Source: Tepidicaulis marinus (GTDB lineage: Bacteria; Pseudomonadota; Alphaproteobacteria; Parvibaculales; Parvibaculaceae). Taken from it: a stretch of 64,000 bases of DNA. Made by a program: the position numbers and the translations under genes. Of this stretch, positions 41,204-49,564 are shown piece after piece. The DNA lies in NCBI RefSeq assembly GCF_000739695.1, contig NZ_BBIO01000005.1:1-64000 (forward strand). Reading direction: 5' to 3'. The notes under the pieces were generated by a model, which was not told the DNA's origin, searched no databases, and worked only from the letters and a program-made list of their open reading frames with translations. Within the stretch, counting starts at the first letter, position 1, and each line of letters opens with the position of its first letter.

Positions 41204-44200
41204 TCAATTGATAGCGGTCGCCGATTGCGCTTCCAGCTCCTTGCCAAGCGTCGAGACGAATTCGTCCAGCGTATCGGCCCCGGCAAATTCCTTTGCAAGG
41301 CGGCGGAATTCCTCGCCCTGCCGCTCGATCGGTTCGGAGAGGATGGCGAATTTGCCCGCATCGGATCCCGCGCGCATCTGCTCGCCGAATTTCTCCCGCA
41401 GCCGCCCGAGCCCTGCCGGGTCGTCCGCCAGCGAATAGGCAATCGCCGCGCGCATGATCATCCGGCGCACTTTCGGCGGAAACTCACGCTCATTGAGCCA
41501 GGCATTGCCGAGCGCGGATTCCACCTGACGGCCCGTCTCTTCCCAGCGCTGAGCGGACCAGAGCACATCCGCCTTCATCCACTGGGCTTCTTCGGTATCC
41601 ATCTCGGACAGAAGATCGAGCGCATGGTCATAAAGATTGAGTTCGGAAAGGGCCCGCGCTTCCAACAGCCGGCGCTTATCCGCCAGATTGTCCGGCAGCA
41701 GCGATTGACGGGTGGAGCGCAGCGCTTCCAGTGCCTTTTCCGGTTTGTGATCCATCAGCCGCACCAGCGCAAGCCGCGTTGCCACTTGCGCCCGCGCGAT
41801 GCCGCGCAGCCGGTGATCCACCTGATGCTGCAAAAGTTCGGCGGCCTGATCGAGCAGGTCCACATCGACGAGCTTGTCCGACAATTGCCGGATCATGGCA
41901 TCGCCCCGCTGACCGATCGGCGTCAGCTCGCGGAAATCGTAATAAAGGGACAGCGCCTCGACCGGGTCCATTTCATCGGCGCCCCCGCCCAGGAAAAGAT
42001 CGGAGAACGTATCCGTCATCGTCGTGGCGATACGCCGAGCCTGATCGGTCTCGGGAAAATTCGTCACCGCCGTCTGCATGACGCGCAGCCCGTCTTCCAC
42101 TTCCCCCATGGCGACATGCATTTCCCCAAGCCGCGCCATGACCGACAGCTCCAGATCGTCGCCCCGCCACATGAAACCGATCGCCTGCAGCTCCTGCATG
42201 AACGCAGCATCGGCCAACAGGCCCATCTTGTGTTTCATCTTGGCTTTCGCAAACCGGGCACGCGCGGCCACCGGGCGGGGCGCGCGTTTTTCAAGCCGCT
42301 CCAGCGTTTCCAGCGCTTCATCGGCTTTGCCCGCCGCTTCCAGCATCAAGCCGCGCACAAGCTGGGCTTCGGCGAGCCAGATATTGTTTTCCGTCTCTTC
42401 GGGAATTTCGTTCAGGTTATACGCGACGGAGGCAAGATCGCCTGCCGCAAGCTCCGCCTCGGCGGCCTTGACGCGGAACATCGCCTGGAAATCGGGCTCG
42501 TACTCGGTAAACGCCCTGCCTGCCCGGTCGAACTCGTCACGCGCCTCGCGCATATTGCCAAGCTCGGCCTGCGCCGTGCCCCGCCATAGAGCGGCATGAG
42601 GGTCCTGTGCCAATCCTTTACCCGACAGATCGCTCAGCGCTTCGTCGAAGCGGTGCATCATGATGTGCCCCACCCCGCGCAGCGCCAGATAAGCCGGTTC
42701 GAGCGCCACATCCGAACTCAGTTTTTCCGCCAGGCGCAGCACCGCAATCGCCTCCGCGCCGAGCTGATAGGCGAGCAGGAAGCGGGCGTAATCGAGCTGG
42801 TCGTCCAAATTATCGGCGGGCGCATTGGCAAGCTTGTCCAGATAAAACTGCCGCCGCTCGGCATAATTGGCGCCCGGCGCCTCCCGCCAGCGCTGAAAAT
42901 CCATCTTGCCGGGCTGCACCGGCTCTTCAACCGCAACGGCCGCCGTCTCCGGGTCCGCATATTCCTCCACATCGCCCGAGGAAAGCGTCAGCCCCGCCCC
43001 GCGCGAGACGATCACCTCATCCTTGATCGCGCGGACGTAAAGATCGTCGGAGAGCGAGACGAAAGCGAGGCCCTGCGCGGTCGCAAGCGCCGCGAATTCC
43101 ACAAAATTGCGCGGTGCCACCATGCCTTGCGGCGGTCCCTCCGCCGTCACGATCGCCAGAACGTCCTTGACGTTGGGATCGCGCACCCAGTGCACCTTGC
43201 CGCGCCCGTTCAAATCCAGGCTGACCTTGGCCTCCCCGTTCGCACTCCAGCCCCGGAAGAGCGAAACCGGCCGCACGGGTTCGACGATCGTATCGCCCAT
43301 AGTGAAGACCCAATTATTGCCCTTCTCGCTGGCCGCCAGCAAAACCCGCTGCGGCGGCTGAAACTGCACGATGGTCGCATCTTCCATCGCCACGAGTTCG
43401 GCCGGGCCGAGCACCTTGCTCATCCCGGCGGTAAGCGCGGAGAAATCCAGTTCCCGTTTGGCATCGAAGACCAGCCAGATGCGCCCGTCCCGCTGAAACG
43501 CCGCCGCGCCGGTCCGCTCGGGCCAAGGAAAGATCAGGCGCACGCTCTCGCCCACAAGCTCCGCCGCCACATTGAGCGGGCCGTCATGATCGGCCGGAAC
43601 CAACGCGCCCGGCTGCACTGCGGCCGGCTGCACTGCGGCCGGCTGCACTGCGGCGGGTCCGGCCTTCTCGCTGCCTGGGCCCGCCTCGGGGGGCCCATCC
43701 GTTGCCGCCATTTTTTCCCCGGCCGGTTCCGCTTCCCTCTTGCCTGCTTCCGGCTCGGCGGCTTCCGGCTCGGCGGGCACAGCTGTGCCCGATGCGATTT
43801 GCCGCGGCTTTGCGGCGGGCTGAGGAGCATCCGCTTTTTGCGTATCGGGTTTTTGCGTATCGGACGTCTTCGTGCCCGCATCTTGCTTCGCGCTCTTGGC
43901 CGGTGCCGAAGGTGCCGCCTCGGGCTTGGCCGCCGTGTCCGTCTCCTCACTCTTGCTCTTGGGCGGCGGCGCGGGCGCTTTGACAAGCGGCGGCGCCCCG
44001 CGCCCCGGTGCGACGATATCGATCACGACATTCAGGTCTTCGCGGAAATCGCGCACCGTCACACCCGGCACCGTGTCGATCGCGACACTGAGGCGGCCAT
44101 TATTGCTGGCAGCCGAGGCGCCCACCAGAAAGGCCGGCGGGTCGACGCGCAGCCGGGCGAGCGGCAATTCCGCGTCCCGGTCGAAGATGACGGTCACGCG

Positions 44201-44845
44201 TCCGTCCCGGGCCGAAATATTATAAAGCACCGGCTGTCCCCAATCGAAGACGAGCCGGGTGAAAGTTTCATGCTCGCCCACCCGCAAAGTCACGCCGGGT
44301 TTGGGTTCGGCGATATTGAGTTCCGCTTCCCCTTCTTTCTCGGCGACGGCCTGCACCACGGCGCTGCGCTCTTCTTCCAGCCGCGCCAGCACATCGTCAG
44401 GCAGGCCGGGCGGTGCGCCCTTCCAGTTCGGCGGCAGCAGGTCCACATAAATCTCGTGGCCCGCCTCATGGGTATTGATGCGGAAATCGGCTTTCAGCGC
44501 CAGGCGCAGCGTCCGGTTGCCGGGGTCCGTGCGGATAAGCGCCACATAGCGGGGCATCTGCGCGGCAAGCTCGCTCAAATCCGCCTCGAAAGGTGTCTCG
44601 AAACTGACGACCAGCACATTCGCCGAGGTCAGGGCTTCGAACTTGGGGGCGCTTTGCATGCGCAAGGGATCGTCATGGCGCGGCCAGGCAAAGATCAGCC
44701 GTCCATATCCATCTTCCTCATCGCCGGTGACGGTAATGGGCGTCGCCGCAAAGGCCGGCGCGGCAAAGGCAAGCGGCAGCGCAAGCATGGCGAGCAGGGC
44801 GCAAAGCGCCGCGCCGATCCGCCATCTATCGTAGCGCATGCTCAC
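41204..44845 (-). CDS. Giant periplasmic protein with three repeated beta domains and a long TPR-like tail (motor-associated?)
   Basis: The 1213-residue protein has a signal peptide (ALCALLAMLALPLAFAAPAFAA). Three divergent copies of a beta domain start around a shared motif: RLIFAWP (near 49-55), RLVFDWG (near 197-203) and RLIFPWP (near 436-442). Between copies two and three lies a Pro/Ala/Lys-rich linker of about 140 residues with a triple AAVQP repeat. From about 665 to the end the protein is helical, with TPR-like units (ARFLLAYQLGAEAIAVLRLAEKL, GRAFTEYEPDFQAMFRVKAAEAEL, EALETLERLEKRAP). The GTG start, overlapping the upstream stop as GTGA, has GGAGG 7 bases before it. The gene is translationally coupled to two MotB-like genes, so a role in anchoring or tuning the flagellar stator is inferred. 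I do not know a named family. Confidence 0.8.
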   Translation of the reverse strand: MSMRYDRWRIGAALCALLAMLALPLAFAAPAFAATPITVTGDEEDGYGRLIFAWPRHDDPLRMQSAPKFEALTSANVLVVSFETPFEADLSELAAQMPRYVALIRTDPGNRTLRLALKADFRINTHEAGHEIYVDLLPPNWKGAPPGLPDDVLARLEEERSAVVQAVAEKEGEAELNIAEPKPGVTLRVGEHETFTRLVFDWGQPVLYNISARDGRVTVIFDRDAELPLARLRVDPPAFLVGASAASNNGRLSVAIDTVPGVTVRDFREDLNVVIDIVAPGRGAPPLVKAPAPPPKSKSEETDTAAKPEAAPSAPAKSAKQDAGTKTSDTQKPDTQKADAPQPAAKPRQIASGTAVPAEPEAAEPEAGKREAEPAGEKMAATDGPPEAGPGSEKAGPAAVQPAAVQPAAVQPGALVPADHDGPLNVAAELVGESVRLIFPWPERTGAAAFQRDGRIWLVFDAKRELDFSALTAGMSKVLGPAELVAMEDATIVQFQPPQRVLLAASEKGNNWVFTMGDTIVEPVRPVSLFRGWSANGEAKVSLDLNGRGKVHWVRDPNVKDVLAIVTAEGPPQGMVAPRNFVEFAALATAQGLAFVSLSDDLYVRAIKDEVIVSRGAGLTLSSGDVEEYADPETAAVAVEEPVQPGKMDFQRWREAPGANYAERRQFYLDKLANAPADNLDDQLDYARFLLAYQLGAEAIAVLRLAEKLSSDVALEPAYLALRGVGHIMMHRFDEALSDLSGKGLAQDPHAALWRGTAQAELGNMREARDEFDRAGRAFTEYEPDFQAMFRVKAAEAELAAGDLASVAYNLNEIPEETENNIWLAEAQLVRGLMLEAAGKADEALETLERLEKRAPRPVAARARFAKAKMKHKMGLLADAAFMQELQAIGFMWRGDDLELSVMARLGEMHVAMGEVEDGLRVMQTAVTNFPETDQARRIATTMTDTFSDLFLGGGADEMDPVEALSLYYDFRELTPIGQRGDAMIRQLSDKLVDVDLLDQAAELLQHQVDHRLRGIARAQVATRLALVRLMDHKPEKALEALRSTRQSLLPDNLADKRRLLEARALSELNLYDHALDLLSEMDTEEAQWMKADVLWSAQRWEETGRQVESALGNAWLNEREFPPKVRRMIMRAAIAYSLADDPAGLGRLREKFGEQMRAGSDAGKFAILSEPIERQGEEFRRLAKEFAGADTLDEFVSTLGKELEAQSATAIN
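43611..43655 (-). repeat. Three tandem 15-bp repeats in the giant gene linker
   Basis: GGCTGCACTGCGGCC is repeated three times head to tail (last base differs in copy three), encoding AAVQP units in the linker. The near-identical codons point to recent slippage or recombination, so the linker length may vary among strains. Confidence 0.9.
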
Positions 44846-45549
44846 CAATTGGCCTCCTTTTCGCCCGCAATCACGATGGCAATACCCGAGCCCGCATCGC
44901 TCGCCACCTCGGCGGACAAATCAATCGTGCCAGTATAGCCCCCTTCGCGCAAACGGTCGCGCAGAATGGCCGCCCGGTCGAATGCAAGCTGCCAGGCGCC
45001 CGTATCCGCGCCCAAAGCGGACATCGCCCCGGCTGGCACCGTGACGCGGATCTGCAGCGGATTGGAAGCATACTGAAGAACCGCCGCCAGCCGGTGCAGA
45101 AAATCCTCACCCTCGATCGTAAGCGTGCGCGTGCCGGCGGGGATAAGTCTGTCCGCGCGCATCAGCAAAATTAGCGGCTGCCCCGCCCCGCCAGCGGCCT
45201 GGCGCGCCAGCGCCGTCTGATCGCGCGAGGACGTGACACCGCCCGTCTCCAGCACCGCGGCAAGATAACCGGTCTCAAGACGCCCGCGTGCGCCTTTCAG
45301 CGGCGCGGCGAGCCCCGCGCTGCCTTGGGGCGCGCGCCCCGTCACCGCGCCGCTTGCCGCCGGTTCTCCGCGGAAAGCGGCACCGAGCGACATCCAGGCC
45401 GTGCCGCTGGGCGCGGAGGCGGCATAAATCAGCACGAAAAAGGTCAGCATCAGCCCCATAAGGTCCGTGAAGGTAATCAGCCAAAGCGGCGTTTCAGCCG
45501 CGCCCTGTTCCTGACCGCCAAAGAAAGCCCGGAGAATGCCCGTCGTCAT
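44842..45549 (-). CDS. MotB-like stator protein with membrane aspartate
   Basis: The 235-residue protein has one membrane helix, PLWLITFTDLMGLMLTFFVLIYAAS (about 21-45), closely resembling the MotB helix including the Asp (in TFTDLM) that carries protons or sodium. The periplasmic part has a degenerate OmpA/MotB peptidoglycan-binding domain: the family's ELS-x-x-RA-like segment is visible as AWQLAFDRAAILRDRL, but the conserved Gly-His-Thr-Asp is absent. It overlaps both neighbours (ATGA upstream, GTGA downstream). MotA is not in the window. Confidence 0.8.
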   Translation of the reverse strand: MTTGILRAFFGGQEQGAAETPLWLITFTDLMGLMLTFFVLIYAASAPSGTAWMSLGAAFRGEPAASGAVTGRAPQGSAGLAAPLKGARGRLETGYLAAVLETGGVTSSRDQTALARQAAGGAGQPLILLMRADRLIPAGTRTLTIEGEDFLHRLAAVLQYASNPLQIRVTVPAGAMSALGADTGAWQLAFDRAAILRDRLREGGYTGTIDLSAEVASDAGSGIAIVIAGEKEANW

Positions 45550-46262
45550 GGCCGCCCTCCCCGCCCGCGCGGCTGCTCGGCAAAGAACTCGAAGAGCACG
45601 TCCCCGCCGCTCAAGGCCGATACATCGGCAATAAGCGCGCCCGGAGACGCGCCGCGGCTTTCCAGCGCCCTGGCAAAGGCCATCGCCCGGCGCTCGTCCA
45701 GGCGCCCCTCAGGCGCGGCCGGCACGACGATCCGCAGCCGGTGCCGCAATGCCGTCTCCCCGCGCCGCACGAGCATCGCGGCAAGCGTGTCGAGCAACCC
45801 GTCCTGCTCCGGGCGCAGCGCCCCTACGCCTTCGGCGAAAAAAGCCGCCGCAGGCAGGCGCAGCCGCAAAAAGCCGCCATCGCCCGAAAGGCCCGCGCCC
45901 AGTCCCGCCGCCCCGAGCCGGGCCCGCAGATCCTCGGCAAAAGCCGCCGAGACCGGCCTGTAGGCAGGCGCCCCCGGCAAAGCCTCGCGCACCATGGCGC
46001 GGCTGGCATCCGGCGCGCTTTGCCCGGCCGTGCCCTTGAACGCGGCCTGCACGCTGCCGATCACCGGCCCGCCTTTGGCCACGTCCTGTGAGGCCTGGCT
46101 GTTGAGATAGGCGAACATGGCAAGGAGAAGCAGAAAAACGGAAAGCAGCGTCCAAAGCGCGCTGAGAGAGCCGTCATTGACTTCGAGCGGCAGATCGCCC
46201 AATGCGCCGCGCGCAATGCCGTTGCGGCGTGCCGGCACAAGATGCGCTGAGCGCTCGCTCAT
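45546..46262 (-). CDS. Second MotB-like membrane protein, lacking the membrane aspartate
   Basis: The 238-residue protein has one membrane helix, LSALWTLLSVFLLLLAMFAYLNSQA (about 36-60), matching MotB in place and topology but without the ion-carrying aspartate. Its periplasmic part looks like a degenerate OmpA-type fold (FFAEGVGALRPEQDGLLDTLAAML, DERRAMAFARALESRGASPGAL). The ATG was chosen because a G-rich stretch precedes it; the frame is open further upstream without coding character. Overlap with the next gene suggests the two proteins are made together, perhaps as a heterodimer. Confidence 0.75.
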   Translation of the reverse strand: MSERSAHLVPARRNGIARGALGDLPLEVNDGSLSALWTLLSVFLLLLAMFAYLNSQASQDVAKGGPVIGSVQAAFKGTAGQSAPDASRAMVREALPGAPAYRPVSAAFAEDLRARLGAAGLGAGLSGDGGFLRLRLPAAAFFAEGVGALRPEQDGLLDTLAAMLVRRGETALRHRLRIVVPAAPEGRLDERRAMAFARALESRGASPGALIADVSALSGGDVLFEFFAEQPRGRGGRP

Positions 46263-46404: not shown

Positions 46405-46419
46405 TTAAGTGCCCCTTAA
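46405..46419 (-). promoter_or_regulatory. CtrA-type box upstream of the MotB-like operon
   Basis: TTAA-GTGCCCC-TTAA matches TTAA-N7-TTAA exactly, with another TTAA at 46391. It lies about 143 bases before the first gene of the operon and just past the motE stop. Confidence 0.65.
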
Positions 46420-46493: not shown

Positions 46494-47312
46494 TCAATTT
46501 TCCACGCTTTTTGCGTCCTTGTCTTCCATCTGCGCTTTCATGGCCGGCGCGGTTTTTTCGAACTGCGCCGCCATTTCCTGCAATTCGGCGGGCAAGGGCT
46601 TGGGCAAGGCGATTTCCACGGTCAATTCCTGCGCGGTGACCGGGTCCATTTCGGCCATGATCGCGGCCATTTTACGCTCGTTCATCATATTGGCGAGCTG
46701 CAAAAGCACGTCCATATCCAGCCGCTCGAAAATCCGGGCGGCGTCTTTCGGCTTCATGGCCGAATACATTTTCACAAGGCCCTCGACGCGCATTTTCGTC
46801 TCGTCGTCTTTCTTGCCGAAATGCGCGGCGATCTTTTCTTCCACCGCTTCAAGCTCTTTGAACCGGTCACCGACGCGCTTTTCCGCCGCACTGATCAGGC
46901 GTTCGCGCATATCGAGCTCGCGGGCGCGCGCTTCCAGTTCCTTCCGCCGCTCGGAAAGGTTCTTGAGGACCTGCAATTTCGACGGTGTGAACTCGCCCCC
47001 CGCATTCAAGGGCATACCGTCCGCCCCTTTCACCACGACCCCGTCCGCCATTTCGCCAGTCATCATTTCGCCGGCCATTGTTTCGCCGGCCGCCATCTCG
47101 CCCGTTTTGGCAGCGGCGCTCTCTTCCATGGCCGGTTCCATGCTTTCACCGCCCGCTGCCGCGTCTTTCTCCATTGCCCCGCCTTCTTCCGCATAAGCAA
47201 GGGCAAAGCCGGTCACGGCGTCGAGCCCGTTGCCGAACCCCACGACCTTCAACCCCAAAAGCAGGGCGGCACTCAACATCAAGACAGGAAGCAAACGCAG
47301 GCGGCTGCTCAT
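46494..47312 (-). CDS. motE: MotE family protein
   Basis: The 272-residue protein has an N-terminal signal/anchor (LLPVLMLSAALLLGLKVVGF), then a low-complexity stretch of Met/Glu/Ala repeats (about 45-95, with EMAAGETMAGEMMTGEMADG), a coiled coil (KNLSERRKELEARARELDMRERLISAAEKRV) and a C-terminal MgtE_N-like domain (YSAMKPKDAARIFERLDMDVLLQLANMMNERKMAAIMAEMDP). In rhizobia MotE is a periplasmic chaperone for MotC and needed for motility. Here it follows fliL-fliM-DUF6468. Confidence 0.85.
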   Translation of the reverse strand: MSSRLRLLPVLMLSAALLLGLKVVGFGNGLDAVTGFALAYAEEGGAMEKDAAAGGESMEPAMEESAAAKTGEMAAGETMAGEMMTGEMADGVVVKGADGMPLNAGGEFTPSKLQVLKNLSERRKELEARARELDMRERLISAAEKRVGDRFKELEAVEEKIAAHFGKKDDETKMRVEGLVKMYSAMKPKDAARIFERLDMDVLLQLANMMNERKMAAIMAEMDPVTAQELTVEIALPKPLPAELQEMAAQFEKTAPAMKAQMEDKDAKSVEN

Positions 47313-47333: not shown

Positions 47334-47834
47334 CTAGCGCGCGCGGCGCAGAGCTTCCAGGAGTTTGTTTTGCAGGGCGGGCGAGGCGGCTTGTTCCTCG
47401 CGCGCGGGCACCGTGCGGTTTACCCGCAAGCTCGCGGGCAATTGGCGCGAATGGGTGCGGGCGGCGACCTGAGCTTCCAGGCGTTCGGCCAGGTTGTTGC
47501 CGCTTTCCACCATCAAGGAAAGCTCGTCGGCAAGCGCCTTGGCTTTGGAATTGCCGGCCTCGATCTTACCGGTCACTTCATCGCCCACTTCCCGGGCGCG
47601 TTTCACGCGCTCGTCCAAATGATCGGCTGCCGTGCGCGAGGTATCGTGCAACTGGCCGACGGAGCGCTGCGCCAGATCGGTCGCCTTGTGCAAGGCGTCG
47701 ATCAGCTCGCGCATCCCGTCCTGCCCCGAGCGCAAGGCCCGCAGCTTGCGGTCCAGCACATAGCAGTAACAAATCGTGGCGACCAGAAGGACAGCCAGCA
47801 AACCTTCGAGAATGAGACCTGTGGGTATCGTCAT
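47334..47834 (-). CDS. DUF6468 membrane-anchored coiled-coil protein
   Basis: The 166-residue protein has one N-terminal membrane helix (GLILEGLLAVLLVATICYCYVLDRKLRALRSG) and a long heptad-rich region (about 35-125). This corresponds to DUF6468, a family I recall mainly from alphaproteobacterial flagellar clusters between fliM and motE. Its start overlaps the fliM stop by one base (TGATG), so the two are coupled. Function unknown; a link to FliM/C-ring or stator assembly is inferred from position. Confidence 0.78.
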   Translation of the reverse strand: MTIPTGLILEGLLAVLLVATICYCYVLDRKLRALRSGQDGMRELIDALHKATDLAQRSVGQLHDTSRTAADHLDERVKRAREVGDEVTGKIEAGNSKAKALADELSLMVESGNNLAERLEAQVAARTHSRQLPASLRVNRTVPAREEQAASPALQNKLLEALRRAR

Positions 47835-49027
47835 CAGACCGTCGCCCCTTCATTATTTAAAAGTCTGTTCTTGATCGATTGCTTGATGCCTTGATCGAGA
47901 CAGACCGCCACGTGATTGCCCATGCGCCCCATCCGGCCCGCCATCAGCGGAATGCCACCGCAGCGCATGCCGATCTGGTCTTGCGGGCCGTTGTTGAACA
48001 TGACCGTTTGGCCGACTTCCAGATTCATCACCTCGCGCAGCATCATCGGCTGCTCGTCGAGCACCGCGTCGATCTGCACTTTCGTGGACCAAAGCTCGGT
48101 CGCAAGGTGGCCTTCCCAAATGGAGTCGCGGCCGAACTTTTCCCCCATGAACATCTGCAAGAGCAGTTCGCGAATGGGCTCCAGCGTCGCGTAAGGCAGC
48201 AGCATTTCCAGCCGCCCGCCGCGGTCTTCCATATCGATGCGCAGCTTGACCAGGATCGCCGCATTGGCCGGGCGCGCAATGGCGGCAAAACGCGGGTTCG
48301 TTTCCATCCGGTCGAGCTCGAAATGCACCGGCGACAGCGGCTCGAAGGCGGTCTTGGCATCGGCGAGCACCACTTCGATCATCCGCTCCACGAGGGAAAG
48401 CTCGATGGTCGTATAAGGGCGCCCCTCGATCCGCATCGCCGCCGTGCCGCGCCGCCCGCCGAGCAGCACGTCCACGATCGAATAGATCAGATTGGAATCG
48501 ACCGTGAAGAGGCCGTAATTGTCCCATTCCTCCGCCCGGAACACCGACAGGATCGCGGGGAGCGGAATGGAGTTCAGATAATCGCCGAAACGGATGGAAG
48601 AGATATTGTCGAGGCTGACTTCCACATTGTCGGACGTAAAATTACGCAGGCTCGTCGTCATCAGCCGGACAAGGCGGTCGAAAACGATTTCCAGCATCGG
48701 CAGGCGTTCATAAGACACCAGCGCCGAGTTGATGATGGCGCGGATACCGCTGCGCTCGGCCGCATCGTTCTCGTCGATCTCGAAGCCCAGAAGGCTGTCG
48801 ATCTCGTCCTGATTGAGCACGCGTTCGGCAGCGCCCGCTTTGACCATGGGCGTGTCGCCGGCAGAAGCGGCGGCAGGCGCGGCATCTTCAGCGCCCTCCC
48901 CATCGTCTTCTTCCGCCATCGCAGCCCATTCGGCGGCCATCGCCTCTTCATCGACGTCGTCGCCGCCTGCAGCTTCCGCTTCCCAGGCAGCGGCCAGCTC
49001 TTCCTGATCCAGATCTTCGTCAGCCAT
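47834..49027 (-). CDS. fliM: Flagellar motor switch protein FliM
   Basis: The 397-residue C-ring protein has the CheY-binding motif LNQDEIDSLL at 71-80 instead of near the N-terminus. It is preceded by an acidic Ala/Glu/Trp-rich extension containing two similar units, LAAAWEAEAAGGDDVDEEA and MAAEWAAMAEEDDGEGAEDA. The middle domain (SIRFGDYLNSIPLPAI, LLGGRRG) and C-terminal SpoA domain (LNLEVGQTVMFNN..GQ-type) are normal. FliG and FliN are not in the window. Confidence 0.96.
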   Translation of the reverse strand: MADEDLDQEELAAAWEAEAAGGDDVDEEAMAAEWAAMAEEDDGEGAEDAAPAAASAGDTPMVKAGAAERVLNQDEIDSLLGFEIDENDAAERSGIRAIINSALVSYERLPMLEIVFDRLVRLMTTSLRNFTSDNVEVSLDNISSIRFGDYLNSIPLPAILSVFRAEEWDNYGLFTVDSNLIYSIVDVLLGGRRGTAAMRIEGRPYTTIELSLVERMIEVVLADAKTAFEPLSPVHFELDRMETNPRFAAIARPANAAILVKLRIDMEDRGGRLEMLLPYATLEPIRELLLQMFMGEKFGRDSIWEGHLATELWSTKVQIDAVLDEQPMMLREVMNLEVGQTVMFNNGPQDQIGMRCGGIPLMAGRMGRMGNHVAVCLDQGIKQSIKNRLLNNEGATV

Positions 49028-49042
49028 TCGCCAAATCCACCC

Positions 49043-49564
49043 TTACTGAACGATCACTTCACGGAACAGAACATCGGTCACCTTGACCGGACGCGCGGCG
49101 AGATTGACCCGCCGCAAAAGTTCCTGACGCAGCAGGAACATGCCCGCAGAACCTTGAAAATCTTCCGGGCGCAATTCGCGCAGATAGACCTGAAAGCCGT
49201 CCACCACGCGCGGCATCACCATTTCCAGATGCTCCATACCGTCTTCATTCGCCAGTTCCAGCGAGACGCGCAGTTTGAGATAGCGTGTCGGCCCGCCGCT
49301 CGGCGAGGAAAGGTTCACGAGAAATTCGGGCAAATCGTAGAAGACGGGCTCGCCCTCTTCGATCAGCGAAACTTCCACCTCTCCTTCCGCGCCGCCCGAA
49401 GCGCTGCCGCCGGAAAGAAAAAAAGCATATGCGCCGTAGCCAAGCCCCCCGACGGCCAGCAGCGGCAGAATGATGTAAAGCACGAGAAACTTGCCGCTCA
49501 GCTTCTTGCGGGCAGGTTCGCCTTCGCCCTCGGCAGTTTCCGTATCCAGATCGATGTCGCTCAT
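49043..49564 (-). CDS. fliL: Flagellar basal-body-associated protein FliL
   Basis: The 173-residue protein has a single membrane helix (FLVLYIILPLLAVGGLGYGAYAFFL, about 27-51) and the FliL periplasmic domain: FYDLPEFLVNLSSPSGGPTRYLKLRVSLEL, LREL. FliL rings surround stator units and improve their function. It heads the minus-strand fliL-fliM-DUF6468-motE operon and is divergent from flgF. Confidence 0.94.
   Translation of the reverse strand: MSDIDLDTETAEGEGEPARKKLSGKFLVLYIILPLLAVGGLGYGAYAFFLSGGSASGGAEGEVEVSLIEEGEPVFYDLPEFLVNLSSPSGGPTRYLKLRVSLELANEDGMEHLEMVMPRVVDGFQVYLRELRPEDFQGSAGMFLLRQELLRRVNLAARPVKVTDVLFREVIVQ

Follow-up and report, generated by a model that had tools for sequence, protein, structure and literature searches.

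Unequal MotB paralogues and an orphan MotA as a probable second flagellar stator in Alphaproteobacteria

What is the role of a flagellar operon encoding two MotB-like proteins, of which one possesses the membrane aspartate and the other does not, together with a giant exported protein? Such an arrangement is found in the window, i.e. the whole stretch of 64,000 nucleotides analysed here from contig NZ_BBIO01000005.1 of Tepidicaulis marinus. An earlier note, made from the sequence alone, proposed either a heterodimeric MotB or a stator anchored through the giant protein instead of directly to the wall. The genes are designated B1, B2 and BIG below and their coordinates are collected in Table 1.

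Table 1. Features of the B1-B2-BIG unit and of its flagellar surroundings (window coordinates).
Feature	Position	Strand	Description
BIG	41204-44845	minus	1213 aa counted from GTG
B2	44842-45549	minus	MotB paralogue, membrane Asp present; OmpA-like domain, GHTD lost in the window's family
B1	45546-46261	minus	ATG start; MotB paralogue, Ser replacing the membrane Asp
B1 parts			one TM helix, plug region and OmpA-like periplasmic domain, peptidoglycan motif absent
CtrA-type box	46405-46419		TTAA-N7-TTAA, palindromic; inside the 232-base motE-B1 gap
MotE-like protein	46494-47312	minus	FlgY/FlbB/MotE group, E-ring candidate; MgtE_N, collar_FlbB, synteny
DUF6468 protein	47334-47834	minus	PF20072, E 2.1e-19
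FliM	47834-49027	minus	TIGR01397, 315.5 bits
FliL-like gene	49043-49564	minus	cluster head; name from position

The three genes overlap in the order B1, B2, BIG, with an ATGA junction between the first two and a GTGA junction between the last two. The anatomy outlined in the earlier note was borne out in each of these respects. The coordinates agree with the two overlaps. The membrane aspartate is contained in the B2 segment TFTDLMGLMLTFFV and is absent from the B1 segment LLSVFLLLLAMFA. The Gly-His-Thr-Asp motif is absent from both window proteins, a loss which, for B2, is specific to the window's family. The sequence and the AlphaFold2 model both describe the 1213-residue product as an exported protein with three RL[IV]F-x-W beta domains and a TPR tail. 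When compared to Pfam, window B2 matched MotB_plug (E 1.1e-9) and window B1 gave no relevant match, the MotB_plug cut-off not being reached.

The unit lies at the end of a cluster ordered fliL, fliM, DUF6468 gene, MotE-like gene, B1, B2 and BIG, which is convergent with fliO-fliP. Orthologues of the FliL-like gene are kept in every related cluster covering that position. The MotE-like protein resembles MotE, FlgY and FlbB in its MgtE_N similarity and in its conserved synteny, although its Pfam score falls just short of the cut-off (24.5 bits against 25.9); it obtains 27.2 bits with collar_FlbB, and its location next to B1 is conserved in relatives. The CtrA-type box announced in the earlier note is present ahead of the unit. 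Four TTAA-N7-TTAA boxes are observed within the window for 0.09 expected (39839, 46405, 54561 and 56768), all of them in the flagellar half. CtrA control of flagellar regions is known in Alphaproteobacteria, and the boxes would fit a region of this kind.

The relationship of B1 and B2 to MotB was established with profiles. A profile of 33 B2 relatives retrieved MotB, PomB and OmpA-domain structures, the best being MotB (E 3.7e-35), and a profile of 31 B1 relatives retrieved PomB/MotB chains of the PDB (best E 5.7e-16); with both profiles the MotB/PomB matches span the TM helix, the plug and the OmpA domain. Comparison of the two profiles with each other aligned 175 columns, most of the B1 length. 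MotB_plug is matched by 33 of 33 B2 members and its cut-off is passed by several B1 relatives. In the AlphaFold2 model (mean pLDDT 77.5), B1 begins with a long helix and contains an OmpA-like domain, most of which exceeds 90 and whose fold matches MotB/OmpA domains. The profiles thus make B1 and B2 true MotB paralogues, with further backing for B1 from its predicted fold, and the objection foreseen in the earlier note, that the pair might be unrelated to MotB, falls away. An assignment to the Zorya defence proteins was rejected, the match of B1 to ZorB being weak (E 0.008) and the context flagellar.

The ion-site column separates the two paralogues. Aspartate occupies it in all 37 B2 proteins, and the 36 B1 proteins carry serine (24), glycine (6), alanine (5) or, in a single case, aspartate. 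B1 is accordingly a MotB paralogue without being a complete MotB, the ion-binding aspartate being one of the features of the latter. The sole B1 retaining the membrane aspartate (L066:7801-8559, genome G078) is a possible intermediate; judging from its sequence, it may be the remnant expected of a duplication followed by loss. The peptidoglycan-binding GH-x motif is found in none of the 36 B1 proteins and in none of the 10 B2 proteins of the window's family. It is retained in 21 of the 27 B2 proteins outside this family, and its loss from B2 is therefore specific to the latter.

The gene order recurs widely. The order seen in the window is shared by each of the nine loci of its family that have a B2 match, one of them (L034, on a 7.6-kb contig) having a downstream BIG gene that is not intact, and by most of 20 class-wide loci from other families. 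The conservation across Alphaproteobacteria suggested as a check in the earlier note is therefore real, and the recurrence indicates that the B1-B2-BIG arrangement is not due to chance. Two further genes often lie between motE and B1 in the loci of other families; in many families (L059, L062, L065, L070 and others) this insert consists of one receiver-like gene (128 aa) and a second gene of some 210 aa, which are CheY/CheZ-like by size and order. B1 and B2 co-occur in every locus and their genes overlap by 4 bases in 22 of 37, which suggests coupled and roughly equal translation. The genes motE and BIG are also found without B1/B2 (G017, G024, G013, G022 (another genus, same family), G043, G053, G052), so that B1-B2 appears as a separable pair and MotE-BIG as the constant core. 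In genome G075, a B1-B2 pair (L077:7377-8713) is located beside a DUF4139 protein, flagellar genes and BIG being absent from the 18 kb around it.

The constant core fits a known type of scaffold. Published work places MotE in the E-ring, within the FlgY/FlbB group, and treats MotC, MotK and CC_2058 as partners resembling PflA (PMC13023049, PMC11870540, PMC10954123). The N-terminus of BIG is signal-peptide-like as judged by eye. In its AlphaFold2 model (mean pLDDT 81.6, mature numbering), AMIN-like domains are located at the RL[IV]F-x-W motifs (about 1-110, 150-245 and 391-487), with a disordered stretch at 246-390, a further beta domain at 495-585 and TPR helices at 617-1175. Among 28 relatives, Pfam detected an AMIN-like domain in 8 and an AMIN domain in 3. 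A Foldseek search of 350,542 PDB chains gave as best match 9hmf_K (E 3.4e-10; next 5e-8), a 773-aa chain of the Campylobacter jejuni motor scaffold which we infer to be PflA, this length fitting the mature protein. The TM-score is low (0.18/0.25), as may be expected for a long flexible superhelix, yet the match of this predicted model is uncertain; the 50 rows listed by VIA-align for BIG are other TPR proteins.

BIG adjoins motE in the relatives devoid of B1/B2, and B1 and B2 intervene where they are present. Proximity to MotE, a published E-ring protein, together with the anatomy described above, indicates that BIG is probably a spoke of the PflA/MotK/CC_2058 type. PflA of Campylobacter, MotK of the Cereibacter Fla2 system, MotC of Sinorhizobium and CC_2058 of Caulobacter are likewise exported and TPR-rich, possess an AMIN-like beta domain where described and are functionally or genetically linked to MotE/FlgY (PMC13023049, PMC10954123). 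BIG differs from them by its three AMIN-like domains and further beta domain, and by the separation of its gene from motE by B1-B2, no such pair being described with MotK, MotC or CC_2058 in the papers cited here. The proposal of a new motor design anchored through the giant partner rather than the wall lost ground: BIG fits a known spoke class, it persists without B1/B2, and most B2 relatives retain the wall-binding motif.

The remaining stator genes of the genome had then to be taken into account. A canonical motA-motB pair with an intact OmpA motif is present on contig C45 (L039) of the T. marinus genome, the very finding named in the earlier note as adverse to its proposal, and contig C39 (L040, L107), which bears a second flagellar cluster, encodes one more MotA and MotB. 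B1/B2 as the sole stator of the genome was rejected in view of the genes on these two contigs, and the genome seems to have genes for two flagellar systems. Among 34 genomes with a B2 match, a MotB-plug match outside the B1/B2 locus was found in 30 and a match to MotA_N (PF20560), a model that does not pick up the MotA2 protein described below, in 32; B1/B2 are therefore usually additional, and the motor may not depend on them for power. G121 and G115 (97% and 95% complete) carry MotA2, B1 and B2 but gave no match to a canonical MotA or MotB; in each, a divergent MotA/ExbB-like gene adjoins one for a TM or OmpA-domain protein (L091 and L092, respectively).

A candidate A subunit is encoded outside the B1/B2 operon, on another contig. 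MotA2 (263 aa; contig C28, L147:8646-9437) lies between fliN and flbD in the operon fliF-fliG-fliH-fliN-motA2-flbD-flhA, and its identification overturned the initial possibility that B1/B2 had no A subunit of their own. Of nine other B1/B2-positive genomes examined, eight have it in this slot; the exception, G107, is 78% complete. In G052, which possesses MotE-BIG and is devoid of B1/B2, the fliN-flbD gap measures about 40 bases and contains no MotA2; this absence concerns one B1/B2-negative genome and the fliN-flbD slot, the fliF operons of G013, G009, G043, G053 and G017 lying beyond the stretches covered and outside the count. Nor is the Caulobacter operon, fliF-fliG-flbE-fliN-flbD, known to contain MotA2. 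The protein is of the PomA/MotP type (best PDB match PomA, E 3.4e-43) and scores 64.8 bits with TIGR03818, the model of canonical alphaproteobacterial MotA, against 375.9 for the canonical MotA itself. It was separated from canonical MotA in the tree (100/99), in which the root and the exact deeper branch order are unsettled.

A similar asymmetry was observed among families of another class within the phylum (L121-L145; f129, f148), where operons of the order motA-motB(Glu/Gln)-motB(Asp)-fliL-fliM are found. The operon MotA of this class is closer to MotA2 (151-212 bits) than canonical MotA is (32-46 bits). As in B1-B2, the Asp-less subunit comes first, and the second MotB has aspartate; the residue of the first is Glu in 9 and Gln in 2 of 11 sequences, in contrast to the small residue of B1, and its description as Asp-less without a carboxylate was dismissed on these counts. 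In the sequences examined, GHTD is retained by both tandem MotBs and, unlike the B1-B2 locus, no BIG is located nearby within the stretches covered. In G156, the B1 profile matches the two tandem MotBs and nothing else. The AU test accepted both the grouping of B1 with the first tandem MotB (p 0.72) and that of B1 with B2 (p 0.78), so that the two pairs may or may not share one ancient origin. Elsewhere in the phylum (L137, L139), tandem motB genes both encode the aspartate.

Taken with the pairing of B1 and B2 in every locus, their usual translational coupling and an orphan MotA2 in another flagellar operon provide strong comparative support for a heterodimeric MotB. On balance, we favour the view that MotA2, B1 and B2 together form a stator; the chances that its B subunits are a B1-B2 heterodimer in particular are about even. 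Somewhat above even, too, are the odds of the fuller reading, in which MotA2 supplies the A subunit and B1 and B2 the B subunits of a second flagellar stator, with BIG as spoke and MotE as E-ring partner. The proposed mechanism can be summarized as follows. MotA2 would form the ring of a 5:2-type channel around a B1-B2 heterodimer acting as axle, and ions would pass through a single aspartate per stator, that of B2, rather than two. MotE in the E-ring and its partner BIG, a PflA/MotK-type spoke in the periplasm, would contact this assembly and jointly position the stators around the motor, with anchoring through BIG. The heterodimeric MotB of the earlier note therefore keeps its paired paralogues and gains an orphan MotA2 encoded elsewhere, heterodimerisation itself being what we infer from them. 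Compared to the MotA5MotB2/PomA5PomB2 stators, B2 is alike in its single TM helix, membrane aspartate, plug and OmpA-like domain, and MotA2 is PomA/MotP-like; the system differs by its two unequal B genes, one of them Asp-less, by an A gene that lies far away in another flagellar operon and by the absence of the peptidoglycan motif from all B1 and from B2 of the window's family.

B1 could also be dispensable for conduction. A stator made of MotA2 and a B2 homodimer, with B1 as a non-conducting MotB relative in a regulatory, diluting or anchoring role towards it, for instance within the MotE-BIG scaffold, would account for a B1 that lacks the ion site and never carries the peptidoglycan motif, for its many long branches, and for the fact that across families B2 alone has all the features of a working MotB. 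We consider this unlikely, since B1 never occurs without B2, nor B2 without B1, and their translation is mostly coupled, which suggests 1:1 use, and B1 has retained its TM helix and plug region. Less probable still is that neither subunit conducts, both being former stator subunits that serve as a membrane-anchored scaffold for canonical MotA-MotB, like Campylobacter PflB. The fact that motE (E-ring) and BIG (spoke) flank them, the canonical MotA-MotB of most B1/B2 genomes and the loss of the peptidoglycan motif in the window's family are in line with such a role, but an aspartate invariant in 37 diverse B2 proteins is unexpected without ion conduction, a matching orphan MotA2 exists, and BIG and MotE persist without B1/B2. 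That canonical MotA, available in most B1/B2 genomes, serves B1/B2 while MotA2 has another partner is very improbable, as canonical MotA already has a MotB as its neighbour, no further orphan B protein that could pair with MotA2 came to light, and in the other class a MotA close to MotA2 directly precedes the B pair.

No description of a B1/B2-like pair or of the fliN-motA-flbD order was found in the open-access literature, and the word undescribed is therefore provisional. The claim that this may be the least described system of the window stands in that literature for B1, B2 and MotA2, and has to be withdrawn for the MotE-BIG part, which is already published; the scaffold half is thus known, and the asymmetric, split-locus stator half looks new. 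More tentatively, many alphaproteobacterial families may possess an asymmetric one-Asp stator beside the canonical one; as the wall-binding motif is absent from both B subunits in the window's family, this stator would there be held by the MotE-BIG spoke and not by the wall.

Models of the 5:2 stator assume identical B subunits with an ion-binding aspartate on each. A natural one-Asp dimer, if real, would offer a direct test of whether both sites are needed and whether the number of ions per turn can halve: if a normal stator alternates between its two aspartates, one with a single aspartate is predicted to let through about half as many ions in each turn. A second, lopsided flagellar stator is probably present in many Alphaproteobacteria and would fill a gap in what is known of their motor, namely dedicated stator genes located, in many lineages, beside the published MotE-MotK/CC_2058 scaffold.
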